Assembly (NCBI GenBank): GCA_017541975.1
Contig: JAFXYB010000013.1
Span: 1 to 64,000 of the forward strand
From: a bacterium
GTDB lineage: Bacteria; Bacillota_I; Bacilli_A; Izemoplasmatales; UBA1188
DNA: 64,000 nucleotides
Direction of reading: 5' to 3'
Both the position numbers and the translations under genes were made by a program. Positions 396 through 15,299 of this stretch are shown piece after piece (position 1 is the first letter of the stretch; each line of letters opens with the position of its first letter). The notes under the pieces were generated by a model that saw only the letters and a program-made list of their open reading frames with translations, was not told the DNA's origin and searched no databases.

Positions 396-2480
396 ATGAA
401 AGAACAATTACTTGTTTTATTATTGGTAATAATTGCTACACTGATTACAATTCTTTACGTATTCTTATTATTTAGAAAAGTATCAAAAGTTCAAATTACC
501 AATGATAAAGTTGATGAGATTCATAAACACATTCATAAAGGTGCAATGACTTTCCTTGTAAGAGAATATAAAATTATTATTCCATTTATTATAGGAATCG
601 CTGTACTATTAACAATTCTTGGATTCATTCCTGCACTAAGTGGTGCAGAAGCAGTTGGATGGAAAGCTGCACTATGCTTTATTATTGGAGCATCATTCTC
701 TGCAACCGCAGGATGGATTGGAATGTTCGTTGCGACAAAGGCAAATGCTAGAACCGCAACTAAAGCCAATGACGAAGGTTTGCCTTCAGCATTAAGAGTT
801 GCTTTCTCTGGTGGTGCTGTACTTGGTTTATCTGTTGTTGGATTTGGATTACTAGGACTTGCAGCTATATTCTTCTTTGCCTTCCTTATTACAGGAAATT
901 TAGAAGAACCAATTCAAATACTAGCCGGTTATTCTCTTGGTTGTTCATTAATTGCATTATTTAGCCGTGTAGGTGGTGGTATTTATACTAAGGCAGCTGA
1001 CGTTGGTGCTGATTTAGTTGGTAAAGTTGAAACTAATTTACCAGAAGACGATCCAAGAAACCCTGCGACAATCGCAGATAACGTAGGCGATAATGTTGGT
1101 GATATTGCTGGTATGGGTTCAGATTTAACAGAATCATATGTTGGTTCAATCATATCTTGTCTTACAATGGCTATATTATCACTTAATGCTGGTGAAATTG
1201 CCTCAATGAGATATGTATTATTCCCAGTAATAATCTGTGGTGTTGGTGTTGTTGCTGCATTACTTTCTGTAATATTATTTAGAATGAAGAACTGGGATAA
1301 CCCACATAAAGCTTTAAATATTGCAACATATGTTGCTGCAGGTATTGTGCTCCTCGCAACAATCATACTCGCTATAGCATATGTTCAAGATTGGAAATTA
1401 ATTATTTCTGTACTCGCTGGTCTATTATCTGGTATTGGTGTAGGATTTATCGCAGAAATATATACTTCAGCTGATTATAAAGAAGTTAAGAGAATCGCAG
1501 AAGAAAGCAAGACAGGACATGCAACAAACATTATTGCTGGTCTTGGTTCTGGCATGAAATCTACAGCCTTAACTATTGCAGTATTAGTAGTTGCGATTGC
1601 GATTGCATATTTCTTCAGTGGCTCGTATGGTATTGCACTTGCTGCAGTAGGCATGTTGTCAACTGCTGGTATAACAGTTTCGGTAGATGGATATGGTCCA
1701 ATTTCTGATAATGCTGGTGGTATTGCTCAAATGGCAGAACTTCCAGAAGATGTTCGTAAAATCACAGACCATCTTGATTCTGTAGGTAATACTACAGCTG
1801 CAATTGGTAAGGGATTCTGTATTGGTTCTGCAACTCTCACATCACTTGCGTTCATTGTATCATTCATTAAAGCATCTGGCGCTACTATTAGTCTTGCGGA
1901 TCCTAAAGTATTAATTGGAATGCTTGTTGGTGCAATGTTGCCATATCTCTTTAGTGCTCTAACAATTTCTTCAGTTGGTAAAGCTGCCAATAATATGGTA
2001 GAAGAAATTCGTGAACAATTCAAAAATAATCCTGGTATTTTAGATGGTACTGCAACTCCTGATTACAATCGTTGTATTGATATCTCAACTAAAGCATCTT
2101 TAAAGGAAATGATTCTCCCTGGTATTATCGCAGTTGCATCTCCAATTATCTGCGGATTATTAATTGGTTCAGCAGGACTTGGAGGGCTCTTAATTGGTGC
2201 CCTTGTTTCTGCAATTATGTTAGCTGTGTTTATGGCAAACTCTGGTGGAGCTTGGGATAATGCTAAGAAATTCATTGAAGAAGGTAACTTCGGTGGAAAA
2301 GGATCAGATACTCATAAAGCATCTATTACTGGTGATACAGTAGGTGACCCACTAAAAGATACTGCAGGACCTGCGATGGATATCTTAATTAAATTAATGT
2401 CAGTTATCTCATTAATTTTAGTTCCAGTTCTTGCAAATCTTACATCATTCTGGGACTTCATCGTAAATCTATTAGGATAA
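396..2480 (+). CDS. hppA: Membrane-bound ion-pumping pyrophosphatase, K+-dependent type
   Basis: This polytopic membrane enzyme hydrolyses pyrophosphate and pumps H+ or Na+ out of the cell. At 694 residues it has the usual family length, with about 16 hydrophobic segments. The substrate/Mg site is intact: [11 protein letters not shown] near residue 203, then [17 protein letters not shown]. The C-terminal [15 protein letters not shown] is also intact. The motif [11 protein letters not shown] carries Ala where K+-independent enzymes have Lys, so K+ stimulation is predicted. The choice between Na+ and H+ cannot be settled by eye. The start has AAAAGGAG eight bases upstream. A soluble pyrophosphatase (ppa) lies only 2.3 kb away, so the cell has both energy-conserving and dissipating enzymes. 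A terminator follows at once. Confidence 0.97.
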
Positions 2481-2487
2481 AATAAAA

Positions 2488-2513
2488 ATGGACTCGGCTG
2501 AGTCCATTTTTTT
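2488..2513. terminator. Bidirectional terminator between hppA and the convergent lipoprotein gene
   Basis: ATGGACTC and GAGTCCAT pair over 8 bp with a 4-base loop. T7 follows on the plus strand and an A-rich flank lies on the left, so it can serve both converging genes. Confidence 0.85.
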
Positions 2514-2526
2514 GTTATATGTTTAT

Positions 2527-4638
2527 CTAGTTATGATAAACACCATTTGAATCTAATTCTACAGTAGTAGAAGAACCAGATGTAAAGCTTGCACCATTTG
2601 ATCCTAAGTAAACTGCAAGTGCATTAAGTGATTTTGGTGCCTTTACTACAAATACTGTTTCATTACTTACTTTAACTGTAAGATAACTATCTTTAGTTAA
2701 TGAAATGGTTGTTTTAGAACCAACAGATGAGAAGTTTGAACAATTAGTTGATTCATTGCTCATGCCACCTGATGGACATAGTGCAACTAAACTACCAGCT
2801 GTATATGTATATCCTCTTTCTGCATCAAGAGAAGAGTTATTAGAACTTGTAGAAATAACTATTGTATTGCCGCCATTTATAACGATGCCTTGATAATTTG
2901 TCTTAGTATTGGCATCAAGTCCATCGCCTCCAGCATATACATATAAGTATCCACCAGAAATAACTATACCTTGACCAGATTCAGTTTTAGAATTAACTCC
3001 ATCATCAGAACTTACCACAGATGTATTACCTCCGGTAACATTAACAGTGTTTCCTTCTAATCCTTCGTATGAGTTAGTGATATTAGTAGTACCCCCACTA
3101 ATTGTAAGTGTTCCATCAGCGTGAATACCATCATCGTTTGAATATAGTGTTAGGTTTCCACCACCAATAGTGATATTGCCAGTAGGTGTTTCACCGTTTT
3201 CTAGTTCGTTATCATTATTCGCATGGATTGCATCATCATAAGATTTGATAGTGATTGTTCCAGCTGAAATTTTTATTTCATTATCAGCTTTGATTCCTTT
3301 TGTTGAATAATCACCTTTGTCTGGATTTCCTTCTTGCATACCACCAAATGGATTAGTAGTAGTTTGATAATTGGTCCAGGTAAATCTTGTGCCTATACCA
3401 ATTGTGTCATAAGAATCATTAATAGATTGAGATCCACTTGATTTAACATATGTTTCACCTTGACCTAAGTTATTTGAATTATCATAAACATATAGTGTGA
3501 AATAACTATATCCAGAAGGTTTATCAATTTTGTAATAGTAATATGTGGTACGAGTTCTGCCACTCATCGCTTCTCTAGAAGTATAGTAAGTAGCATTTTT
3601 CCAAACATAATCTTCATCGCTATTGAAATATTTGATTGAATAATAATAAGTATTAGTTGTATTTCTAATATAATAGATACTGTCAGCTACATCAGTAACT
3701 TCTAATGAATAAGAAGAGTATTTATCAGTTAAGATATTTAATGTTACTGTTGCACTGCTTTCATCAATTACACAGTCATATGCTGCATCTATACCATCAC
3801 ATGCAGCATAGATATTAATAGTACCGCCAGAAATAGTTACTGTCCCTCTCTGGTTTCCTTTTGATGAAACATCTGAATTAGATGTTTTAATACCATCACC
3901 TTTTTTACTTATTAGTGTTAGAGTACCGCTTTCAATAGTAACACTATCGTTTCCCTTAAGGGCATTATCCATACATTCAACAGTTAATGTTAGGTTTTTG
4001 ATTTCTAAATCATCTTTAGTATGAATACCATTATTGTTTGTTGAAGTGAGATATAATGTTCCTTTACCTTTAATTGATAAATCACATTTAGCGTAGATAG
4101 AACCACTTATACCATCTTCATCAACCTCAGCTCTATAATCATTGATATAATTTACAGTGTCTTTTTTAAAGGATAAACCAACTTTGTCAGCACTCTCAAT
4201 ATAAATAGGAGGAGCTGTATAAGAGTTTATAGTTACACCCTTAAATTCTAGATCAAGTTTGTAATCTTCAGTGGCATCTATCACAATGTTTCCATCGATT
4301 TCACCGCTAATTGAATATTCCGAATTTTCTGTAATATTTGAGAATGTAATTGTATTACCTGTGATTGTGTAAGCGTTCTCAGTGCCAGAAACATATTCAA
4401 TTGTGAACTTTGTCTCGTCTAAATCTTGTACTACAGTTGTGGTTGTATTATCGGTTGTAGTGTTGTTACTAGCAGTAGTGGTTCCACCATTATTTGTGAC
4501 TGTAGTAGTAACATTCTCACCACTTGTAGTAGTGGCATTATTTGCTGTGGTTGTATTATCCTTGTTTCCACACGCAACAAGCATTAGTAATCCTAAGATA
4601 GAAAATGTTAAAATAAATATTCTTTTTACTGATTTCAT
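2527..4638 (-). CDS. Cthe_2159-like carbohydrate-binding lipoprotein (parallel beta-helix)
   Basis: This is a surface lipoprotein of 703 residues. The lipobox is LVAC with the lipidated Cys at residue 23. A Thr/Asn-rich linker (about 30-75) follows, then a long domain built of repeated SGGTI.I.S.DDGI turns. The recurrent GDGI, DDGIHADG and DDAIHAN turns are typical of the Cthe_2159 family, calcium-dependent beta-helix proteins that bind acidic or plant polysaccharide. I chose the ATG at 4638. The in-frame GTG at 4647 overlaps the Shine-Dalgarno AGAGAGG, which sits eight bases before the ATG. A -10 TATAAT lies at 4663-4668 on the minus strand. The assignment rests on repeat pattern only; binding specificity is unknown. 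Confidence 0.8.
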   Translation of the reverse strand: MKSVKRIFILTFSILGLLMLVACGNKDNTTTANNATTTSGENVTTTVTNNGGTTTASNNTTTDNTTTTVVQDLDETKFTIEYVSGTENAYTITGNTITFSNITENSEYSISGEIDGNIVIDATEDYKLDLEFKGVTINSYTAPPIYIESADKVGLSFKKDTVNYINDYRAEVDEDGISGSIYAKCDLSIKGKGTLYLTSTNNNGIHTKDDLEIKNLTLTVECMDNALKGNDSVTIESGTLTLISKKGDGIKTSNSDVSSKGNQRGTVTISGGTINIYAACDGIDAAYDCVIDESSATVTLNILTDKYSSYSLEVTDVADSIYYIRNTTNTYYYSIKYFNSDEDYVWKNATYYTSREAMSGRTRTTYYYYKIDKPSGYSYFTLYVYDNSNNLGQGETYVKSSGSQSINDSYDTIGIGTRFTWTNYQTTTNPFGGMQEGNPDKGDYSTKGIKADNEIKISAGTITIKSYDDAIHANNDNELENGETPTGNITIGGGNLTLYSNDDGIHADGTLTISGGTTNITNSYEGLEGNTVNVTGGNTSVVSSDDGVNSKTESGQGIVISGGYLYVYAGGDGLDANTKTNYQGIVINGGNTIVISTSSNNSSLDAERGYTYTAGSLVALCPSGGMSNESTNCSNFSSVGSKTTISLTKDSYLTVKVSNETVFVVKAPKSLNALAVYLGSNGASFTSGSSTTVELDSNGVYHN

Positions 4639-4746
4639 ATAGTGCACCTCTCTTTTGGCCCTATTATATAGTAATTAATGTCTGCTTGTCTTTCTATATC
4701 ATTGAAGAAACATTAATTATTCAAAAAAACATCACAATTGATTATT

Positions 4747-4770
4747 AAAAAAAGAATGCATAGCATTCTT
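4747..4770 (-). terminator. Terminator of ppa
   Basis: AAGAATGC and GCATTCTT (4752-4770) form an 8-bp stem with a 3-base loop. Read on the minus strand it ends in T7. It begins directly at the ppa stop codon. Confidence 0.85.
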
Positions 4771-5313
4771 TTATTTGCTGTATTCAGGATATTTTTCTTT
4801 ATATCTATCAATACAATGTTCGATAACTTTTACAGCTTCACTCCTTCCTATAGCCTCATCAACAACAGTGGTTTTACCCTCTAGTGTCTTATAAATGCTG
4901 AAGAAGTGTTCTATTTCTTGGAATATATGAATAGGCAAATCACTTATATCTTTATATGGATTGTACATAGGATCTGCGAATGGTATTGCGATGATTTTTT
5001 CGTCTAATTTACCCTGATCTAACATTTTTATAACACCAATTGGATAACATCTAACTAGTGTTAGTGGATCAAGAGATTCGCTACATAGTACTAGGCAATC
5101 AAGTGGATCACCATCTTCACTATATGTTTTAGGAATAAAGCCATAATTTGCAGGATAGTGTGTTGATGTATAAAGAATTCTATCTAAAATGATGAGTCCG
5201 CTCTCTTTATCTAATTCATATTTTTTCTTTTCGCCTTTTCTAATCTCTATTACAGTTAAAAAATCTTCTGGTTTTACCCTGTCTTTATTTATTGAATGCC
5301 AAACATTTTTCAT
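4771..5313 (-). CDS. ppa: Soluble inorganic pyrophosphatase, family I
   Basis: This cytosolic enzyme hydrolyses pyrophosphate to two phosphates. The protein has 180 residues, the normal bacterial length. The family I signature appears as [10 protein letters not shown] near residue 67, preceded by [13 protein letters not shown], which is also characteristic. Downstream acidic residues of the metal site (FADP and the DISDLP region) are present. The ribosome site AAGGGG lies upstream of the ATG at 5313. It is transcribed alone, away from lgt, and ends in a strong hairpin. Finding a family I enzyme beside hppA in a low-GC Gram-positive-like genome is notable, since many Bacilli use the family II enzyme instead. 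Confidence 0.95.
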
Positions 5314-5416
5314 ATTAAATCCCCTTATATTCTCTACATAGGTATTTTATCATAATTTAAGACAATAATAAATTTCAAATAATAAAAATAATTATATGTT
5401 AAAATATATGTGTAAT

Positions 5417-7122: not shown

Positions 7123-8868
7123 ATGATTAAAAGATTTGCTCACTACTATAAACCACACAAAAAAATATTTATAATGGACATGACTGCATCTTTCCTAGTT
7201 GCAGTTATTGGTATGGTTTATCCAATTGTTACAAGGTATATGTTAAATGATTGGATTCCAGAACAAAAAATAAATCTTATCATTACTGGTGGTTCACTTC
7301 TTTTAATTGCTTATCTTATGAGGCTTGGACTTAGATATTTTATTCAATATTATGGTCATCTAATGGGCGTTAGGATGCAAGCCGACATGAGAAGTGATAT
7401 GTTTAATAAGTTACAAAAGCTTCCTTATTCTTATTTTGATAAAGAAGAAACAGGAAGTATTATGTCTAAAATAACCAACGATTTATTTGATATTTCAGAG
7501 CTAGCACATCATGGACCAGAAAACATATTTATTGCTGGGTTTACACTAATTTGTTCTTTTATTTATCTTTTAACTATTAACTGGATACTTGCATTAATTC
7601 TTTTCGTTAGTGTGCCTCTTTGTTTCTTGGTATCGGTAAGATTTAGACTTAAGATGAAAGAGGGCTCTAAGAAATCCAAAGTAGCTATGGCTAAAATCAA
7701 TGCTAATACAGAATCATCAATAACTGGTATAAGGGTTACTAAAGCCTTTAACAACAGCAAAAAAGAAAAAGAAAAATTCGAAGAAAGTAACTTAGAATTT
7801 ATTGAAGCGAGAAAAGTATTCTTTAAATCGATGGGTGCATTTTTCTCAATGAGTCAATTTATCACAGATTTATTTAATGTATTAATATTAATAACTGGTG
7901 GTATTTTCCTATATAAAGGATATATTTCTATATCTGATTACACAACATTTGTTGTGTCAGTGGGTATGTTTATCTCCCCTATCAACCAGTTGATTCAATT
8001 CACCGAACAATACCAAAGTGGTGCAGCTGGCTTCAAACGATTTATTGAAGTAATGGATGAGAAAGAAGAAAGAGATGAAGAAGATGCAATTAGTTGCACA
8101 GGGCTCCAAGGAGAAATTGAGTTTAAGGACGTATCATTTGGTTATAATACAACACAAGATGTTTTAAATGATGTATCATTCAAAATTAAAAAAGGTGAAA
8201 CCATCGCTCTTGTCGGGCCATCAGGAGGCGGTAAGACAACTATATGCCATCTAATCCCTAGATTTTATGAATACGAAAAAGGTGAGATATTGATTGATGG
8301 CATACCAATTACTCGCTTTACTAGAGAATCATTAAGAGCCAATATTGGTATTGTTCAACAAGATGTCTTCTTATTTGGCGGCTCTATAAAAGAAAATATC
8401 CGTTATGGAAAACTAGATGCAACTGAAGAAGAAATTGAAATGGCCGCAAGAAGAGCTAATATAATGGAGTTTATAAATTCTCTTCCTGATGGATGGGATA
8501 CAGAAATAGGTGAAAGAGGTGTTAGATTATCAGGCGGACAGAAACAAAGGCTTTCAATCGCAAGAGTTTTCTTGAAGAACCCACCAATCTTAATATTAGA
8601 CGAAGCAACATCTGCACTTGATAACACAACTGAGATGCTGATTCAAGAATCATTAAACGAACTTTCAAAAGGAAGAACTACTATCGTTGTTGCCCACAGG
8701 CTATCTACAGTTAAAAATGCCGACGAGATAATCGTTATATCGAAAGGTAAAATTGATGAACAAGGTACACATGAAGAGTTAGTAAAGAATACAGATAGTA
8801 TCTATAGAAAACTTTATGATCTTCAATTTAGAGATTTAGATGATAATCATATAAATATAAAAATATAA
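7123..8868 (+). CDS. ABC exporter, fused permease and ATPase (MsbA/BmrA type)
   Basis: This half-transporter of 581 residues works as a dimer. An N-terminal six-helix ABC membrane domain (about 1-310) precedes a nucleotide-binding domain (about 335-570). Walker A is GPSGGGKTT, the signature is LSGGQKQR, Walker B is ILILDEATSALD and the switch is VAHRLS, all intact. The substrate cannot be told; lipids, peptides and drugs are all possible for this family. There is no ribosome binding site, and a -10 element ends six bases before the ATG, so the mRNA is probably leaderless. The DUF362 gene follows after 15 bases and probably shares the transcript. Confidence 0.92.
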   Translation: MIKRFAHYYKPHKKIFIMDMTASFLVAVIGMVYPIVTRYMLNDWIPEQKINLIITGGSLLLIAYLMRLGLRYFIQYYGHLMGVRMQADMRSDMFNKLQKLPYSYFDKEETGSIMSKITNDLFDISELAHHGPENIFIAGFTLICSFIYLLTINWILALILFVSVPLCFLVSVRFRLKMKEGSKKSKVAMAKINANTESSITGIRVTKAFNNSKKEKEKFEESNLEFIEARKVFFKSMGAFFSMSQFITDLFNVLILITGGIFLYKGYISISDYTTFVVSVGMFISPINQLIQFTEQYQSGAAGFKRFIEVMDEKEERDEEDAISCTGLQGEIEFKDVSFGYNTTQDVLNDVSFKIKKGETIALVGPSGGGKTTICHLIPRFYEYEKGEILIDGIPITRFTRESLRANIGIVQQDVFLFGGSIKENIRYGKLDATEEEIEMAARRANIMEFINSLPDGWDTEIGERGVRLSGGQKQRLSIARVFLKNPPILILDEATSALDNTTEMLIQESLNELSKGRTTIVVAHRLSTVKNADEIIVISKGKIDEQGTHEELVKNTDSIYRKLYDLQFRDLDDNHINIKI

Positions 8869-8883
8869 AAAAAGGAGATATCC

Positions 8884-9771
8884 ATGGAAAAAGCAAAAGT
8901 ATATTTCACAAAAACCATCACAAAAGAAAAAGTACTAGAGATGTATGAACTTTTAGGCTTCAAGCCAAAAGGAAACGTTGCGATTAAATTACACTCGGGT
9001 GAAAAAGGAAATCAAAACTTCTTAAGACCTGATTTTTGGAAACCAGTAATTGATAAAATTGGTGGCACAGTTGTCGAATGCAATACGGCATATCCTGGTG
9101 CAAGAAACTATACCGACATTCATAGAAGATTAATAAGCGAACATGAATGGGATAAGTATTTTGCCTTTGATTTAATGGACGCAGAAGGCCCAGATATGGA
9201 ACTTCCAGTTCATAATGGCCACATTCTTAAAACAAACCTTGTTGGTAAAAATTTAAAAAACTATGATTCTATGGTAGTTCTCGCTCACTTTAAAGGCCAT
9301 CCTTGCGCAGGATATGGTGGAGCTTTAAAACAATTATCAATAGGCATCGCCTCAACAAGAGGTAAATCACTAATACATTCAGCTGGTACTACAGATGATC
9401 AAAACATTGTTTGGGATCAAATGGCATCACAAAAAGATTTTTGTGAATCAATGGCTGATGCAGCTGAAAGTGTGATAAGCTATTTTAAAGGAAATATCGC
9501 ATATATCAACGTTATGAAGAATATTTCTGTAGATTGTGACTGCTGTAGCCCTGCAGAAGATCCATGTATGGAAGACATTGGTATACTAGCTTCATTAGAT
9601 CCTGTTGCAATAGATCAAGCTTGTATCGATTTAATATATTCAAAGACAGAAGATAAAGGCCAAAAACACTTCCTAGAAAGACTTGAATCTAGAGGTGGTA
9701 TTCACACTGTTGAAGCTGCTGAAGAATTAGGTTATGGAAATAGAGTGTACGAACTTATTGAAATAGCGTAA
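8884..9771 (+). CDS. DUF362 domain protein, possible iron-sulfur protein
   Basis: This 295-residue protein contains a DUF362 domain. The core is recognisable from KLHSGEKGN near residue 36, AHFKGHPCAGYGGALKQLSIG near 140 and the Cys cluster CDCCSPAEDPC near 219, followed by ILASLDPVAIDQACIDLI. Many relatives carry an extra C-terminal 2x4Fe-4S ferredoxin domain, which is absent here. The clustered Cys residues could bind a cofactor. The function of the family is not well established. A strong site AAAAGGAG precedes the ATG. It follows the ABC exporter closely and ends at a terminator. Confidence 0.8.
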   Translation: MEKAKVYFTKTITKEKVLEMYELLGFKPKGNVAIKLHSGEKGNQNFLRPDFWKPVIDKIGGTVVECNTAYPGARNYTDIHRRLISEHEWDKYFAFDLMDAEGPDMELPVHNGHILKTNLVGKNLKNYDSMVVLAHFKGHPCAGYGGALKQLSIGIASTRGKSLIHSAGTTDDQNIVWDQMASQKDFCESMADAAESVISYFKGNIAYINVMKNISVDCDCCSPAEDPCMEDIGILASLDPVAIDQACIDLIYSKTEDKGQKHFLERLESRGGIHTVEAAEELGYGNRVYELIEIA

Positions 9772-9876: not shown

Positions 9877-11112
9877 ATGAAAAAAATATTTGGAATTTTT
9901 GCATCAATTCTACTAGTTTTATTATGTGTTTCTCTTACTGCATGTGGTAACAAAGCAGAAGAGGGAACGGTTACTAGAGTTGAAATGTCTGTAAACCCAG
10001 ACATCGAATTTATGATTGACAGCAATAATAAAGTAATCGCTGTTACTGCATTAAATGATGATGGTAGCGTTTTAATCTCAGGCGAACAATTTGTAGGACT
10101 TGATTATGAAGAAGCTATAAATAACGCTATGGCACTTGCAAAATCTATGGGCTATTTAATGAAGGCAAACACTGATAACTATGTAAACGAAATAAAGTTA
10201 TCAGTATCAGGAGCTACTAGATACGCAAAAGGCGTTAAAGAAAACATTACATCAAATATTCAAACATTCTTAGCTGACAACGACATTAGTGGAACAGTCA
10301 AATCTCTCAACGCAATGACAGTTGAAGAATTGAGAGCTGAAGCTGTAAACACTGCAATGGTTACTGAAGATGAAGCCAAAGAAATGGATGAGAAACAATT
10401 ACTTAAAGTAATAAGCGCATCAAGAATTGAAACTGCCGAGCTTCTAACTAAAGAAATGAGAGAAGCATACTATCGTGCTAAGGAACATAAAATTAGTTTT
10501 GTTGAAAGAGAAGAAACTCTACAAGCAATGGAAGGTTTAACTGGCCTTTATTCAACCGCATATAGCTTATATTCAGTAGCACTAGGTATCTATAGTAGTG
10601 CTTTAGACGCTCTTGATGAAGCAAGATATAACTATTTTGTTTCTCCAGAATCAGATTATCAAAAAGCATTAGCTGAATTAAGAGAAAAGAAAGCCGAAAT
10701 ACTAGAAGATAGAAACTATCTATTAACTTTAAATGTAAATGGCGAAGAATACGCTTCTGTATCACTTGAAATAACCGCAAGCGAAGAAGAATACGACCAA
10801 ATGGTTGATAATTTAGAACAATTAGGTTCAAATTTAAACGCATCATTAGACCAACTTGTTGCTAAATTAAGAGATGCTGAGACAGCTCTTTATGAAACAT
10901 ATAATAAGCTCCCTCTTCCATCAGACTTTAACCAAACTTTAAAAGATAAAGCATCTGAACTTGAAACTAAGTTAAATGAAACAAAAGACAAATTCTTCGA
11001 AGAATACGAAAAAGATCATAAAGATGATTTAGATATTTTAATTGCACAACTCGCAGCTGAAAAACAAAAAATATTAGACAGTGCTAAAACAAACAGTAAT
11101 GGTTTAGCATAA
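9877..11112 (+). CDS. Lipoprotein with RsgI-like domain and coiled coil
   Basis: The protein has 411 residues, a lipobox LTAC and the lipidated Cys at 23. Residues about 33-110 read VEMSVNPDIEFMIDSNNKVIAVTALNDDG, then ISGEQFVGLDYEEAIN. This resembles the extracytoplasmic middle domain of RsgI-type anti-sigma factors (VNPSIE...N..G.V....LN.DG). The rest is helical and charged, with likely coiled coil at about 180-400. True RsgI proteins cross the membrane and bind a SigI factor through an N-terminal cytosolic domain. This protein has a lipid anchor instead, and no sigma factor lies nearby, so it would be a domain reuse. It is monocistronic, with AAAGGAG before the start and a terminator after. 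The role is unknown. Confidence 0.7.
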   Translation: MKKIFGIFASILLVLLCVSLTACGNKAEEGTVTRVEMSVNPDIEFMIDSNNKVIAVTALNDDGSVLISGEQFVGLDYEEAINNAMALAKSMGYLMKANTDNYVNEIKLSVSGATRYAKGVKENITSNIQTFLADNDISGTVKSLNAMTVEELRAEAVNTAMVTEDEAKEMDEKQLLKVISASRIETAELLTKEMREAYYRAKEHKISFVEREETLQAMEGLTGLYSTAYSLYSVALGIYSSALDALDEARYNYFVSPESDYQKALAELREKKAEILEDRNYLLTLNVNGEEYASVSLEITASEEEYDQMVDNLEQLGSNLNASLDQLVAKLRDAETALYETYNKLPLPSDFNQTLKDKASELETKLNETKDKFFEEYEKDHKDDLDILIAQLAAEKQKILDSAKTNSNGLA

Positions 11113-11130
11113 AATCCATTATATATTGAA

Positions 11131-11158
11131 AAACAAAACCTTTTTGGTTTTGTTTTTT
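11131..11158 (+). terminator. Terminator after the RsgI-like lipoprotein gene
   Basis: AACAAAACC and GGTTTTGTT pair across a T5 loop and run into T6. Confidence 0.85.
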
Positions 11159-11207: not shown

Positions 11208-12557
11208 ATGATTAAATTAAAAGAATATTTAAAGACAGTGGATAGGGTATATCATACAACATTAAATCCAAAAGGGCCTGGATGCGTAAGAGTGCACTTA
11301 GTTCCACCTAAAAAATGTAAAGTAGGTATACCATGGGTTGCAATAATAAATGGTTATTATGTTCTCCCAATTCAAACATCTTGGGCTGTTTTATTATCGA
11401 TTTTTATTGATACATTAAATGAAACAGAAGGTGTTCCTTTCGAATCAATGGATGAAATTATACATAACACAACTCTAATAGCTAAAAAAATATTTGATAA
11501 AACCAACGAAAAACTAATGAGAAAAGATTTAAAAGAAATGCTTCAAGTATTTGAAGATATCGCCAAAGGAAAAACACCTACTACTGAAATAGGCTTTATG
11601 ACACTCGCAAAATATGGCAAGTTCATGAGTGCTCCTCATAGAATGGATCTTATGGTTTCATCTATGAGCAGAGATGGTGCTTGGAACTGTAACCAAAAAT
11701 GTATACATTGTTATGCTGGTGAAGAACTGATGGCTAACACAGAAGAATTATCTACTGCCGATTGGTTTAAGATTATCGATGAACTTAGACAAGCAAGAGT
11801 TCCAGCTGTAACATTCACTGGTGGTGAACCAACAATAAGAAAAGATCTTGTTGAATTAATTGACCATGCTAAGTGGTTTGTCACAAGGTTAAATACCAAT
11901 GGCATATTGTTAAGTGAAGATTTATGTAAAAGATTATATGATGCTAGTTTGGATAGCGTTCAAATCACTTTCTATTCAAACCAAAAAGAGATTCATAATT
12001 TACTAGTTGGTGGTAATCACTATGATGAGACAATAGAAGGTATCAAAAACGCTATTAATGCTCATCTCGATGTCAGTGTAAATACACCTCTTTGTGTGTT
12101 AAATAAAAACTATAAAGAAACTATTGAGTTTTTAAGTAAACTTGGAGTTAAATATTTTACATGTTCAGGTTTAATTCCAACTGGAAATGCAAAATTAGAA
12201 GAATCATCATCAACCAAACTATCTAAAGAAGAAATTACACAAGTATTAAGAGAAGCATATGCATATACAAGTAAAAATGGTTTAGAATTATCGTTTACAT
12301 CTCCAGGATGGATAGATGATAGTGTATTAACCTCAATGAAGATGGTTGTGCCATCTTGTGGAGCGTGCCTATCAAATATGGCAATTGCGCCAAACGGAAA
12401 CGTTCTTCCTTGTCAATCTTGGTTATTTGAAGAGGCGCTTGGAAATATACTAGAAACCAAATGGAATAATATTTGGAATTCTAAGAGATGTAAAGGCCAA
12501 AGAAAGTATGCGATGAAGAACGAGAGGGTATGTCCTTTAAAAAAGGAGGTGCTATAG
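11208..12557 (+). CDS. Radical SAM enzyme with SPASM/twitch-like C-terminus, putative peptide maturase
   Basis: This is a 449-residue cytosolic radical SAM enzyme. The 4Fe-4S/SAM site is CNQKCIHC (Cys161, 165, 168), with the GGEP motif at 205-208. A C-terminal Cys set (384, 387, 402, 428, 442) fits a SPASM or twitch domain holding further clusters, as in enzymes that modify peptides. Residues about 30-100 (WVAIINGYYVLPI then a helical stretch) have the look of a PqqD-like peptide-binding fold, but this is weak. The last codons contain the Shine-Dalgarno of the next gene, whose ATG starts one base after this stop. Co-translation is therefore built in. That product ends in six Cys-Ala repeats, the obvious candidate substrate. 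The chemistry is unknown; thioether formation is the usual outcome for such pairs. Confidence 0.85.
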   Translation: MIKLKEYLKTVDRVYHTTLNPKGPGCVRVHLVPPKKCKVGIPWVAIINGYYVLPIQTSWAVLLSIFIDTLNETEGVPFESMDEIIHNTTLIAKKIFDKTNEKLMRKDLKEMLQVFEDIAKGKTPTTEIGFMTLAKYGKFMSAPHRMDLMVSSMSRDGAWNCNQKCIHCYAGEELMANTEELSTADWFKIIDELRQARVPAVTFTGGEPTIRKDLVELIDHAKWFVTRLNTNGILLSEDLCKRLYDASLDSVQITFYSNQKEIHNLLVGGNHYDETIEGIKNAINAHLDVSVNTPLCVLNKNYKETIEFLSKLGVKYFTCSGLIPTGNAKLEESSSTKLSKEEITQVLREAYAYTSKNGLELSFTSPGWIDDSVLTSMKMVVPSCGACLSNMAIAPNGNVLPCQSWLFEEALGNILETKWNNIWNSKRCKGQRKYAMKNERVCPLKKEVL

Positions 12558-12558
12558 T

Positions 12559-13593
12559 ATGAAAAAGATAATTATTTCATTAATCTTATTAGTACTTACT
12601 TTAGTTTTAATTCCTGTGAATGTTAAGGCAAGCTCATATGGTGATTTAGATATCATCAATGAATACAATATTAAAGTTGACCCAAGATCAGATGGAACAC
12701 TCGATATAGAATATCATATTAACTGGACTGTATTAGATGATGAAAGTGAAGGACCATTATCGTGGGTTAAAATTGGTGTTGCCAACAAGCATATCAGTCA
12801 GCTTGAAAATAAATCGGCCGATATTATAAAGAATTTAGAGTATTATGATGACGATGGTTCTTTTGTAAGAGTTGATTTTAAGAAGAAATACTATCAGGGT
12901 GAAACTGTTGATTTTACATTTAAATTAAATCAAAGCCGAATATTTACTCTAAACGACGATAAGACAATAGTAGAATATAGTTTTATTCCTGGATGGTTTC
13001 CAGATATTAATGTTAAAAGCATCACAATTGACTGGAAAGCATCAGATAGCCTCACATATGTAACTGGTGATTTAGAATCCGGCTATTACCATATAGAAGG
13101 TTCTTTAGGACATAATGATACTCTTAAGGCAGATTTTGCTTACACAAGAGACACATTCCCAGACCTAAATCCTAAAAAAGACTATATTAGTTACGAAAAA
13201 GAATCAGAAATTATGGCATTAGTTATAGTGTTTATAATTGTTGCGGTTGTAGTAACTATAATAGTCATATGTAAAGTAGTTGAATATACAACAAACGATG
13301 GTTATGATGCAAACTCTGGATTCAGTGGTCACTATTATTGGTATTATCAGTTCTATATGCCTCATACAAGAAGAATGGGGTACAATAGAAAAGGAGAATC
13401 CATTGCCCCATCAAGGCCTACAGTTATTGCCGCAAAGAGTTCAAGCGGTCACTCAACTGGGGGTGGCGGAGGATCTTGTGCTTGTGCATGTGCGTGTGCA
13501 TGTGCCTGTGCTGGTGGTGGAAGAGCCGGTTGTTCAAGAAAAGATTTCTATAATCCAGATTTAGAAAAGATAAAAGAAGCACTAGACAAATAG
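12559..13593 (+). CDS. Membrane protein with cytosolic (Cys-Ala)6 tail, candidate radical SAM substrate
   Basis: This 344-residue protein has a signal peptide (1-25, ending near VKASS) and an outer beta-rich domain (about 28-210). That domain is reminiscent of the N-terminal half of DUF2207-type proteins. One membrane helix follows at about 219-240, then a cytosolic tail. The tail has a Gly run, Ser306, six Cys-Ala dipeptides at 307-318, then GGGRAGC (Cys325) and a charged end. All six Cys codons are TGT, but the Ala codons vary (gct, gca, gcg, gca, gcc, gct). The repeat is therefore held at protein level and is not fresh slippage. The upstream radical SAM gene is translationally coupled. With the signal cleaved, the tail faces the cytosol, where that enzyme works. 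Metal binding by the tail is an alternative. Confidence 0.8.
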   Translation: MKKIIISLILLVLTLVLIPVNVKASSYGDLDIINEYNIKVDPRSDGTLDIEYHINWTVLDDESEGPLSWVKIGVANKHISQLENKSADIIKNLEYYDDDGSFVRVDFKKKYYQGETVDFTFKLNQSRIFTLNDDKTIVEYSFIPGWFPDINVKSITIDWKASDSLTYVTGDLESGYYHIEGSLGHNDTLKADFAYTRDTFPDLNPKKDYISYEKESEIMALVIVFIIVAVVVTIIVICKVVEYTTNDGYDANSGFSGHYYWYYQFYMPHTRRMGYNRKGESIAPSRPTVIAAKSSSGHSTGGGGGSCACACACACACAGGGRAGCSRKDFYNPDLEKIKEALDK

Positions 13594-13619
13594 AAAAGAT
13601 GGAAGCGATTCCATCTTTT
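13594..13619. terminator. Bidirectional terminator between the CA-tail gene and recN
   Basis: AAAAGATGGAA and TTCCATCTTTT pair over 11 bp with a 4-base loop. The A and T flanks suit both converging genes. Confidence 0.85.
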
Positions 13620-15299
13620 AGTTTCTTATTACCATTTCTCTTGCATATTGTAGCTGACTATCTGTCACCTTGTCACCACTAATCATTTGGGCTATTTCGT
13701 AAATCTTTTCATCTAAAGATAATTCTTTAACATTTGTATATGTCCTATTACCTTTAATAGATTTACTTATCTTCAAATGATTTTTTGATAGAGATGCTAC
13801 TTGAGGAAGGTGTGTTATTGAAATAACTTGTGTTGAGAGAGATATTTCATAAATCTTATTCGCAACCTTTCCAGCAATCTCACCAGAAATACCTGTATCT
13901 ATTTCATCAAATATAACAGTAGAAATCTTTTGAGATTTAATGAATAAAGCTTTAAGTGCCAACATGATTCTAGATGCTTCACCACCAGATACTGTTTTAG
14001 AAAGAGGTTTTAATCCTTCGCCTACATTGGTTTCAATAAGGAAGTCAATATAATCTATACCGGTGTCTTTGAAAATTGAACCAGATAAGTCTTTTTCTTT
14101 CTCATCTCTATTTTAAGACTTACTTTAAATCTTGCCTTTAAAGATAGGTCAGACATATTCTTTTCTAATTCTTTTTCAATAGATAAGGCAATGCTTTCTC
14201 TTATCTTTGATAAATCTAAGCCAGCTTTATATGTATTATTATAAAGAGTTTCTAAATCTCTCTTTATTTCCTTTAATAAATCATTGTAATCATCACCAGG
14301 TTTCAATAAATCAATTAGTGAATCACGATAATTAATTAATTCAGGAATATCCATTTTATATTTCTTTTTGAGATTATCTAAATCATTCTTTCTTGATTCT
14401 AAATTAGTTAATTCTACTGGATCATAATCGAGTTTTTCAAAATCTTTCTTTAAATCATCAAATATACTCTCAATTTCATAGTAGTAGTCACTTAGTTTTT
14501 CAGTAGTAGAAGTATATTCTTTTTGATAATTAGAGAGTTTATCGGTAAGGCTTTTAACATCATATAGTTTATCTAAAAAATCTTCATGAATAAGTGAGTT
14601 TGTTTCTTCTAAGATATTGTATATCTTGTCGAAGTTCTTAAGTAAATCAATTTTATTGTCGATTTTCTCTTCTTCATCAAGAGATAAATCATAATCATTT
14701 AATTCTTTTAGATGATATTCATAGACATCTTTCTTTTCTTCGATATCTTTAATTTTCTTAAGCAAATCGTTATATTCGTTTCTCTTTTCTTTAAATTTAG
14801 ATAACTCATTTAAGTACTTTGTTTGATATTCTTTAATAAGATCATATTTAAATCCATCAACTATTTCTAAGTAGTTTTCTGGGTTAAGTATCTTTTGCAT
14901 ATCAAATTGCATATGTATATCAGCGAGATATTTAGATATTCTCTTTAAATCACCAAGAGTTATCACAACATCATTTACTTTAATTGTGCTTTTTGAAAGA
15001 GATATAATTCTTTGAACTTTTATTTTAGAATCAAGAGTAGGAACACCCATAGATTCTAATAAAGCTTTTAAGTGAATATTATTCATATCAAAATAACCGA
15101 TTATCTCTGCTTTATCAAATCCGGTTCTTATCATTTCTACTTGAGCTCTTTCGCCAAGAAGAAGACTTAAAGAATCGATTATAAGACTCTTACCAGCACC
15201 GGTTTCACCAGTTAGAACTGTAAGACCATCTTTAAAAGATATATCGATATTTTCTATTATTGCGAAGTTGGAAACTATGAGTCTTTCAAGCATATACAT
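13618..15299 (-). pseudogene. recN: DNA repair ATPase RecN, split by a frameshift
   Basis: RecN is an SMC-like ATPase of double-strand break repair. The N-terminal frame (15299 down to 14055, 414 residues) has Walker A GETGAGKS and the long coiled coil. The C-terminal part (down to 13618) has Walker B VIFDEIDTGISG and the ITHLPQVA motif. They lie in different frames. After codons AGA AAG AAA in the five-A run at 14092-14096, reading must move by -1 to continue as DLSGSIFKDTGID and then a VSGGEASRIMLALK signature. Restored length would be about 557 residues, normal for RecN. The cause may be a real indel, a phase-variable homopolymer or an assembly error. The nearby slippery sequence is G AAA AAG, a poor heptamer for programmed -1 shifting. 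AGGAGG precedes the start. Confidence 0.88.

Follow-up and report, generated by a model that had tools for sequence, protein, structure and literature searches.

Organization of the locus

The window, i.e., the whole 64,000-nucleotide stretch of bacterial DNA that was analysed, carries two adjacent genes on its forward strand. The first encodes a radical SAM enzyme of 449 aa (ORF at 11208–12557, with matches to PF04055 and PF13186). The second encodes a membrane protein of 344 aa (12559–13593, defined by its ORF, the alignment of its homologues and a structural model), hereafter called the partner, whose tail contains six consecutive Cys-Ala (CA) dipeptides. The ribosome-binding site of the partner gene, AAGGAGG, is read directly at 12543–12549 on the same strand and sits within the 3' end of the enzyme gene, whose stop codon (12555–12557) comes just past this site and one base ahead of the partner's ATG. 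Judging from this layout, the two genes are likely translationally coupled.

The pair forms a two-gene unit bounded by predicted terminator-like hairpins. The hairpin at 11128–11158 (+) ends the upstream gene, and the one at 13594–13619 is bidirectional, ending the unit and, from the opposite side, a downstream gene on the other strand, which we take from its own sequence to be recN. This gene (13618–15299, − strand) occupies two frames, split near position 14050, with a 414-aa ORF ending in QFSKTPV and the rest in the other frame; the homologue in locus L004 is uninterrupted, and the split is likely a frameshift or an assembly error. Directly upstream of the unit, a lipoprotein with an RsgI-like central domain (PF23750) is encoded at 9877–11112 (+), and a homologue of it is also found upstream of the pair in locus L003.

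The radical SAM enzyme

The enzyme comprises an RRE-like N-terminal domain (approximately residues 12–120), a radical SAM core and a C-terminal Twitch-like auxiliary-cluster domain. Its sequence contains C161-x3-C165-x2-C168, GGEP at residues 205–208 and five C-terminal Cys (384, 387, 402, 428 and 442). With 81.2 bits against a cut-off of 29.5 for PF04055, it belongs to the radical SAM superfamily, and C161, C165 and C168 are invariant in all 26 sequences covering them. C384, C402 and C442 are invariant across the enzyme homologues, and C387 and C428 are nearly so. A preliminary description of this DNA had reported these motifs together with the overlap between the enzyme gene and the partner's ribosome site, and each was confirmed at its position.

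The first half of the SPASM Cys pattern (CX9-15GX4C ... CX2CX5CX3C ... C) is present as C384...G397...C402, and the match to the SPASM model PF13186 is partial, covering only residues 384–435. Given that the second set of SPASM Cys is absent, the enzyme is Twitch-like, with a half-SPASM domain for a single auxiliary cluster, and is not a member of the two-cluster SPASM enzymes. All NCBIfam equivalog models were missed widely, the best being NirJ2 (108 versus 500 bits). The enzyme reaches 57.3 bits against a cut-off of 400 for the ACGX model TIGR04340 and 68.6 bits against 300 for the SkfB equivalog TIGR04403, and is thus a member of neither, while the SCIFF maturase model is not among its best 25 NCBIfam matches. 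No Pfam or NCBIfam model is specific to the enzyme family or to the family of the tail proteins. In a search among relatives of the window, clade members were found at about 1e-211 and the next relative at 5e-16; the weakest full-length clade enzyme, from the Clostridia-side draw described below, was found at 8e-122. This gap indicates the enzyme clade is discrete.

The structure of the enzyme was modelled with AlphaFold2, with a mean pLDDT of 80 and a pTM of 0.82; confidence falls below 50 at the loop of the radical SAM cluster (residues 157–173). A profile search of PDB sequences ranked SkfB first and also matched PqqE, CteB and SuiB. When the model was used for a fold search, the top nine PDB chains were from SkfB, SuiB and CteB, with nearly full-length alignments, and the alignment against SkfB (6efn) presents an E-value of 6.6e-15 over almost the full length. 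In the model, the N-terminal region presents four strands followed by three helices. The RRE domain of SkfB spans residues 12–105 and starts with a three-stranded antiparallel sheet (PMC6231123), which the strand and helix order of the modelled N-terminal domain resembles. A profile comparison of this region with the PqqD family scored 21.9, above all of 60 column shuffles, which reached at most 17.6; in absolute terms the match is weak (hhalign probability of 10%). In fold, topology and Cys pattern, the enzyme thus has the architecture of the SkfB-like Twitch sactisynthases, i.e., an RRE, a radical SAM core and a single auxiliary cluster.

The preliminary description had placed the enzyme close to the SPASM, SCIFF and ACGX-type systems. 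The comparison was close, yet SkfB, a Twitch enzyme, is more closely related than any of these, and the C-terminal domain is only half a SPASM. SkfB, the sporulation killing factor sactisynthase of B. subtilis, shares the three-part architecture with its single-cluster Twitch domain and is the best PDB match by both sequence and fold. However, the two are only about 21% identical, and SkfB acts on a small secreted peptide encoded in a cluster with export genes and a putative protease (PMC8172795), whereas the putative substrate here is a cytosolic tail belonging to a membrane protein of 344 aa. SuiB and CteB, the latter being a SCIFF/ranthipeptide maturase, are SPASM peptide maturases that also present the three-domain architecture, match over nearly the whole protein and cross-link peptides, but they have a full SPASM domain with two auxiliary clusters (PMC6231123) and their substrates are small free peptides. 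The likeness to ACGX and the other NCBIfam systems of a radical SAM/SPASM enzyme and its target peptide (TIGR04340 and others) lies in a radical SAM enzyme placed beside short Cys repeats.

Given identities of only about 16–21% to the closest characterised homologues, the chemistry of the enzyme is not readable by homology. The radical SAM scaffold is also common to peptide epimerases and other radical SAM enzymes. A viperin-type defence enzyme was considered and rejected, as the PADLOC pVip model matches only over the common core (59 bits, E = 1e-16) and the fold is nearer to the RRE-bearing maturases. A phage-borne system was likewise rejected, since viral contigs yielded only distant radical SAM matches, with 27–47% identity over short stretches.

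The partner membrane protein

From its N-terminus, the partner consists of a signal segment (hydrophobic over residues 1–19), the outer domain, a single membrane helix and a tail that reads S-(CA)6-GGGRAGCSRKDFY, and whose sequence in the window is SCACACACACACAGGGRAGCSRKDFYNPDLEKIKEALDK. The signal peptide is a hydrophobic segment of about residues 1–24 (12559–12632, +), identified from hydropathy and with a predicted helix at residues 2–17. The outer domain (12634–13194, +) was modelled as a beta-sandwich with pLDDT mostly above 85. It is followed by the single membrane helix (about residues 213–245; 13195–13293, +), located by hydropathy and the model, and by a region disordered in the model (residues 248–329). 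Six Cys lie in the CA dipeptides (307–317) and are followed by GGGRAGC; the sole other Cys, C238, is in the membrane helix. Sequence, hydropathy and model thus agree with the architecture given in the preliminary description, from the signal peptide to the six Cys-Ala dipeptides and GGGRAGC.

Hydropathy and flanking charge predict that the C-terminus lies inside the cell. In one set of homologues (L029 at 7362–8627, L044 and L045), a zinc-ribbon-like CxxC...CxxC is found in the same segment, between the membrane helix and the CA repeat, which also fits a cytosolic tail.

The fold of the outer domain resembles the N-terminal domain of M1 aminopeptidases and ribophorin I, and, given this likeness of the model, the domain is probably a binding domain rather than a catalytic one. 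It may be a divergent DUF2207-like N-terminal domain. The DUF2207 N-terminal model (PF09972) matches eight of the 22 CA-tail proteins at E ≤ 0.1, the best at 3.9e-5; the window's partner reaches 14.5 bits, below the gathering cut-off of 24.4. No match was obtained when the outer domain was compared by hhalign with five local DUF2207 domains, a weak test because some loci were not re-oriented. By sequence, a distant relation is likely. DUF2207 membrane proteins share with the CA-tail proteins the outer domain, the membrane segment and a Gly-rich C-terminus, but the DUF2207 tails in local loci are rich in Gly and Ser rather than Cys-Ala.

Conservation of the tail

The tail was examined in an alignment of 22 partner proteins, which are 31–68% identical to that of the window. 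Positions C313, C315 and C317, A314, A316 and A318, G319, G321, R322, A323, G324, C325, K328, D329 and Y331 show little or no variation. The motif persists in species whose partners are only 31–40% identical over the whole protein. The last tail module, CACAG(G/S)GR(A)GC, is almost invariant, while the number of CA units varies and CASS, CAHSS, CVSS or a Gly run are interspersed in some lineages. Hence, the last module is the constant part of the tail and the upstream CA units are its variable part. Given this variation in spacing, one fixed cross-link pattern is not favoured. A more divergent partner, in locus L057, has GGGRVGC and is without KDFY in its frame.

In the window, the (CA)6 repeat covers residues 307–318 (13477–13512, +) and is the presumed modification site. 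The near-invariant module CACAGGGRAGC-S-x-KDFY (13501–13551, +) presumably combines the modification core with a recognition follower. A DNA microsatellite origin of the repeat was ruled out by the conservation of the amino acids and by the codons, which in ten homologues mix GCT, GCA, GCC and GCG for Ala and TGT and TGC for Cys. The use of all four Ala codons and both Cys codons shows that selection acts on the repeat at the protein level.

With seven Cys within about 20 residues, the tail could bind soft metals, and the zinc-ribbon-like module that some homologues carry in the same cytosolic segment would suit a metallothionein-like, iron-sulfur-binding or redox tail, on which the enzyme would install or repair something, if it did not act elsewhere on the membrane protein. 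This leaves unexplained the invariant Ala and GxGRAGC, as well as why the tail is so strictly tied to a radical SAM enzyme that bears an RRE, and we consider it quite unlikely.

Co-occurrence of enzyme and tail

Whole genomes were searched independently with a DNA pattern for CA-CA-G-x-G-R-A-G-C and with the enzyme. Among 392 genomes drawn from the phylum of the window, with a threshold of E ≤ 1e-40 for the enzyme clade, the tail pattern was found in three and the enzyme clade in the same three. Among 391 genomes of the Clostridia-side draw, i.e., the class of the second seed, the tail pattern was found in 8 and the enzyme in 11, which include all 8. As for the three extra genomes, the neighbouring partner in L057 carries (CA)n-GGGRVGC, the partner in L055 runs off the contig before any tail is visible, and that in L056 (1250–2871) is cut after 87 aa beside transposase-like ORFs, the enzyme gene being intact. 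With the two seed genomes removed, the hypergeometric P is 5e-13 for the Clostridia side and 1e-5 for the window's phylum, treating the genomes as independent, though they are related. Tails widespread in genomes lacking the enzyme, which would have spoken against a link, were found in neither draw, as the enzyme accompanies 8 of 8 and 3 of 3 tail genomes. In addition, a profile of the outer domain only matched solely genomes of the paired kind (2 of 177).

Enzyme and CA-tail genes are adjacent at all 25 assessable loci, in either order, the reversed order being found in L027, L028 and L041/L047. L026 and L041 have more than one partner copy, and the tail in L025 is readable only across an assembly frameshift. 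Over 19 pairs, the two proteins diverge in parallel (r = 0.84), which is what joint inheritance of their genes would produce. Within Firmicutes the distribution of the pair is patchy: it occurs here and there among Bacilli and Clostridia, and many of the carriers are gut bacteria. In the window's genus, it is present in four of the seven genomes and is therefore dispensable or mobile on an evolutionary timescale.

This strict two-way co-occurrence, together with the adjacency and the enzyme fold, lends strong support to the proposal of the preliminary description that the tail is what the enzyme acts on. Adjacency and co-occurrence alone do not prove an enzyme-substrate relation, and the two proteins might merely share a pathway in which the enzyme modifies something else. 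We give this very little credence, as no other conserved small Cys-rich ORF was found beside the enzyme among homologous loci, nor is there a third conserved partner gene: the two-gene unit stands alone.

Neither an exporter nor a protease is conserved with the pair, whose flanking genes vary between lineages, and the loci thus do not have the make-up of a secreted-RiPP cluster. The earlier judgement that this is probably not a secreted RiPP therefore holds. The partner might instead be a membrane-tethered RiPP precursor, its tail being cut after modification and freed as a bioactive peptide; an RRE-bearing maturase and a C-terminal Cys-rich core are found in RiPPs as well, and the tail is disordered in the model. 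Besides the missing protease and exporter, however, the predicted cytosolic location of the tail, the KDFY conserved after a near-invariant module and the conservation of the outer domain all weigh against such a precursor, and the fast-changing core typical of antimicrobial RiPPs is not seen. We regard it as highly improbable.

Proposed mechanism

We propose that the two genes form a protein-maturation system in which the enzyme would cross-link the cytosolic tail of the partner, the product being retained in the membrane, and we put the probability of this reading at roughly 0.6. By analogy with the enzyme's structural relatives, cross-linking of the tail is the most likely activity, probably through Cys thioethers. 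The RRE-like domain would bind the C-terminal tail, probably recognising as a follower sequence the invariant KDFY together with the short helix behind it. Residues within (CA)n-GGGRAGC would then lose hydrogen to the 5'-deoxyadenosyl radical and become thioether-bonded to Cys sulfurs that the auxiliary iron-sulfur cluster holds in place. The auxiliary cluster of CteB has an open site to which a substrate Cys binds (PMC6231123), and we infer by analogy that the tail Cys may play the same role here. A Cys-to-Ala C-alpha thioether is known from ruminococcin C1 (Cys5-Ala12; PMC8172795). The inner end of this type I membrane protein would thereby become a rigid, cross-linked knot, and the product would stay in the membrane, with a structural or sensory role, rather than being exported.

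The same scaffold would also serve for C-alpha epimerisation of the alternating Ala (or Cys), or for desaturation, in place of thioether formation. Radical SAM epimerases likewise abstract a C-alpha hydrogen, and in polytheonamide the next event takes place two residues away (PMC8326336); the CA repeat alternates strictly. Nevertheless, the best structural matches of the enzyme are thioether synthases, and epimerisation leaves unexplained the conserved substrate Cys, which thioether chemistry needs. We consider it unlikely. Within the thioether reading, a more specific picture can be offered only tentatively, at somewhat less than even odds: a dedicated radical SAM system, guided by a C-terminal follower, would install thioethers one after another, as a ladder, on the cytosolic end of the type I protein, yielding a stapled membrane receptor or anchor and no secreted product.

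A radical SAM precedent for Cys thioethers in a functional protein, rather than a natural product, is QhpD acting on QhpC of quinohemoprotein amine dehydrogenase (PMC8172795). That system differs in that the substrate is a small enzyme subunit, the cross-links are methylene ones from Cys to Asp or Glu, and further maturation genes lie in the operon.

Radical SAM enzymes with an RRE have mostly been known from the production of small secreted peptides, and an RRE-bearing maturase with a Cys-rich target is already known as a kind. What appears to be new is the cytosolic tail of a membrane protein as the strict partner of such a maturase, and no description of the CA tail or of the pair was found in the open-access full-text literature. 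The constant pairing of enzyme and tail points to a chemical modification, so far undescribed, that acts on a membrane protein as opposed to a secreted antibiotic. If true, it would extend radical SAM/RRE chemistry to a membrane protein retained in the cell, and (CA)n-GGGRAGC-KDFY would be a very simple test substrate that could serve peptide stapling.

A minor observation concerns locus L026, where a paralogue of the outer domain, stopping after the membrane helix and without a CA tail, lies between two tailed copies (8296–9036). At this single locus, genes identified by eye as agrB-, agrC- and agrA-like (2264–5354) are found upstream of the pair.
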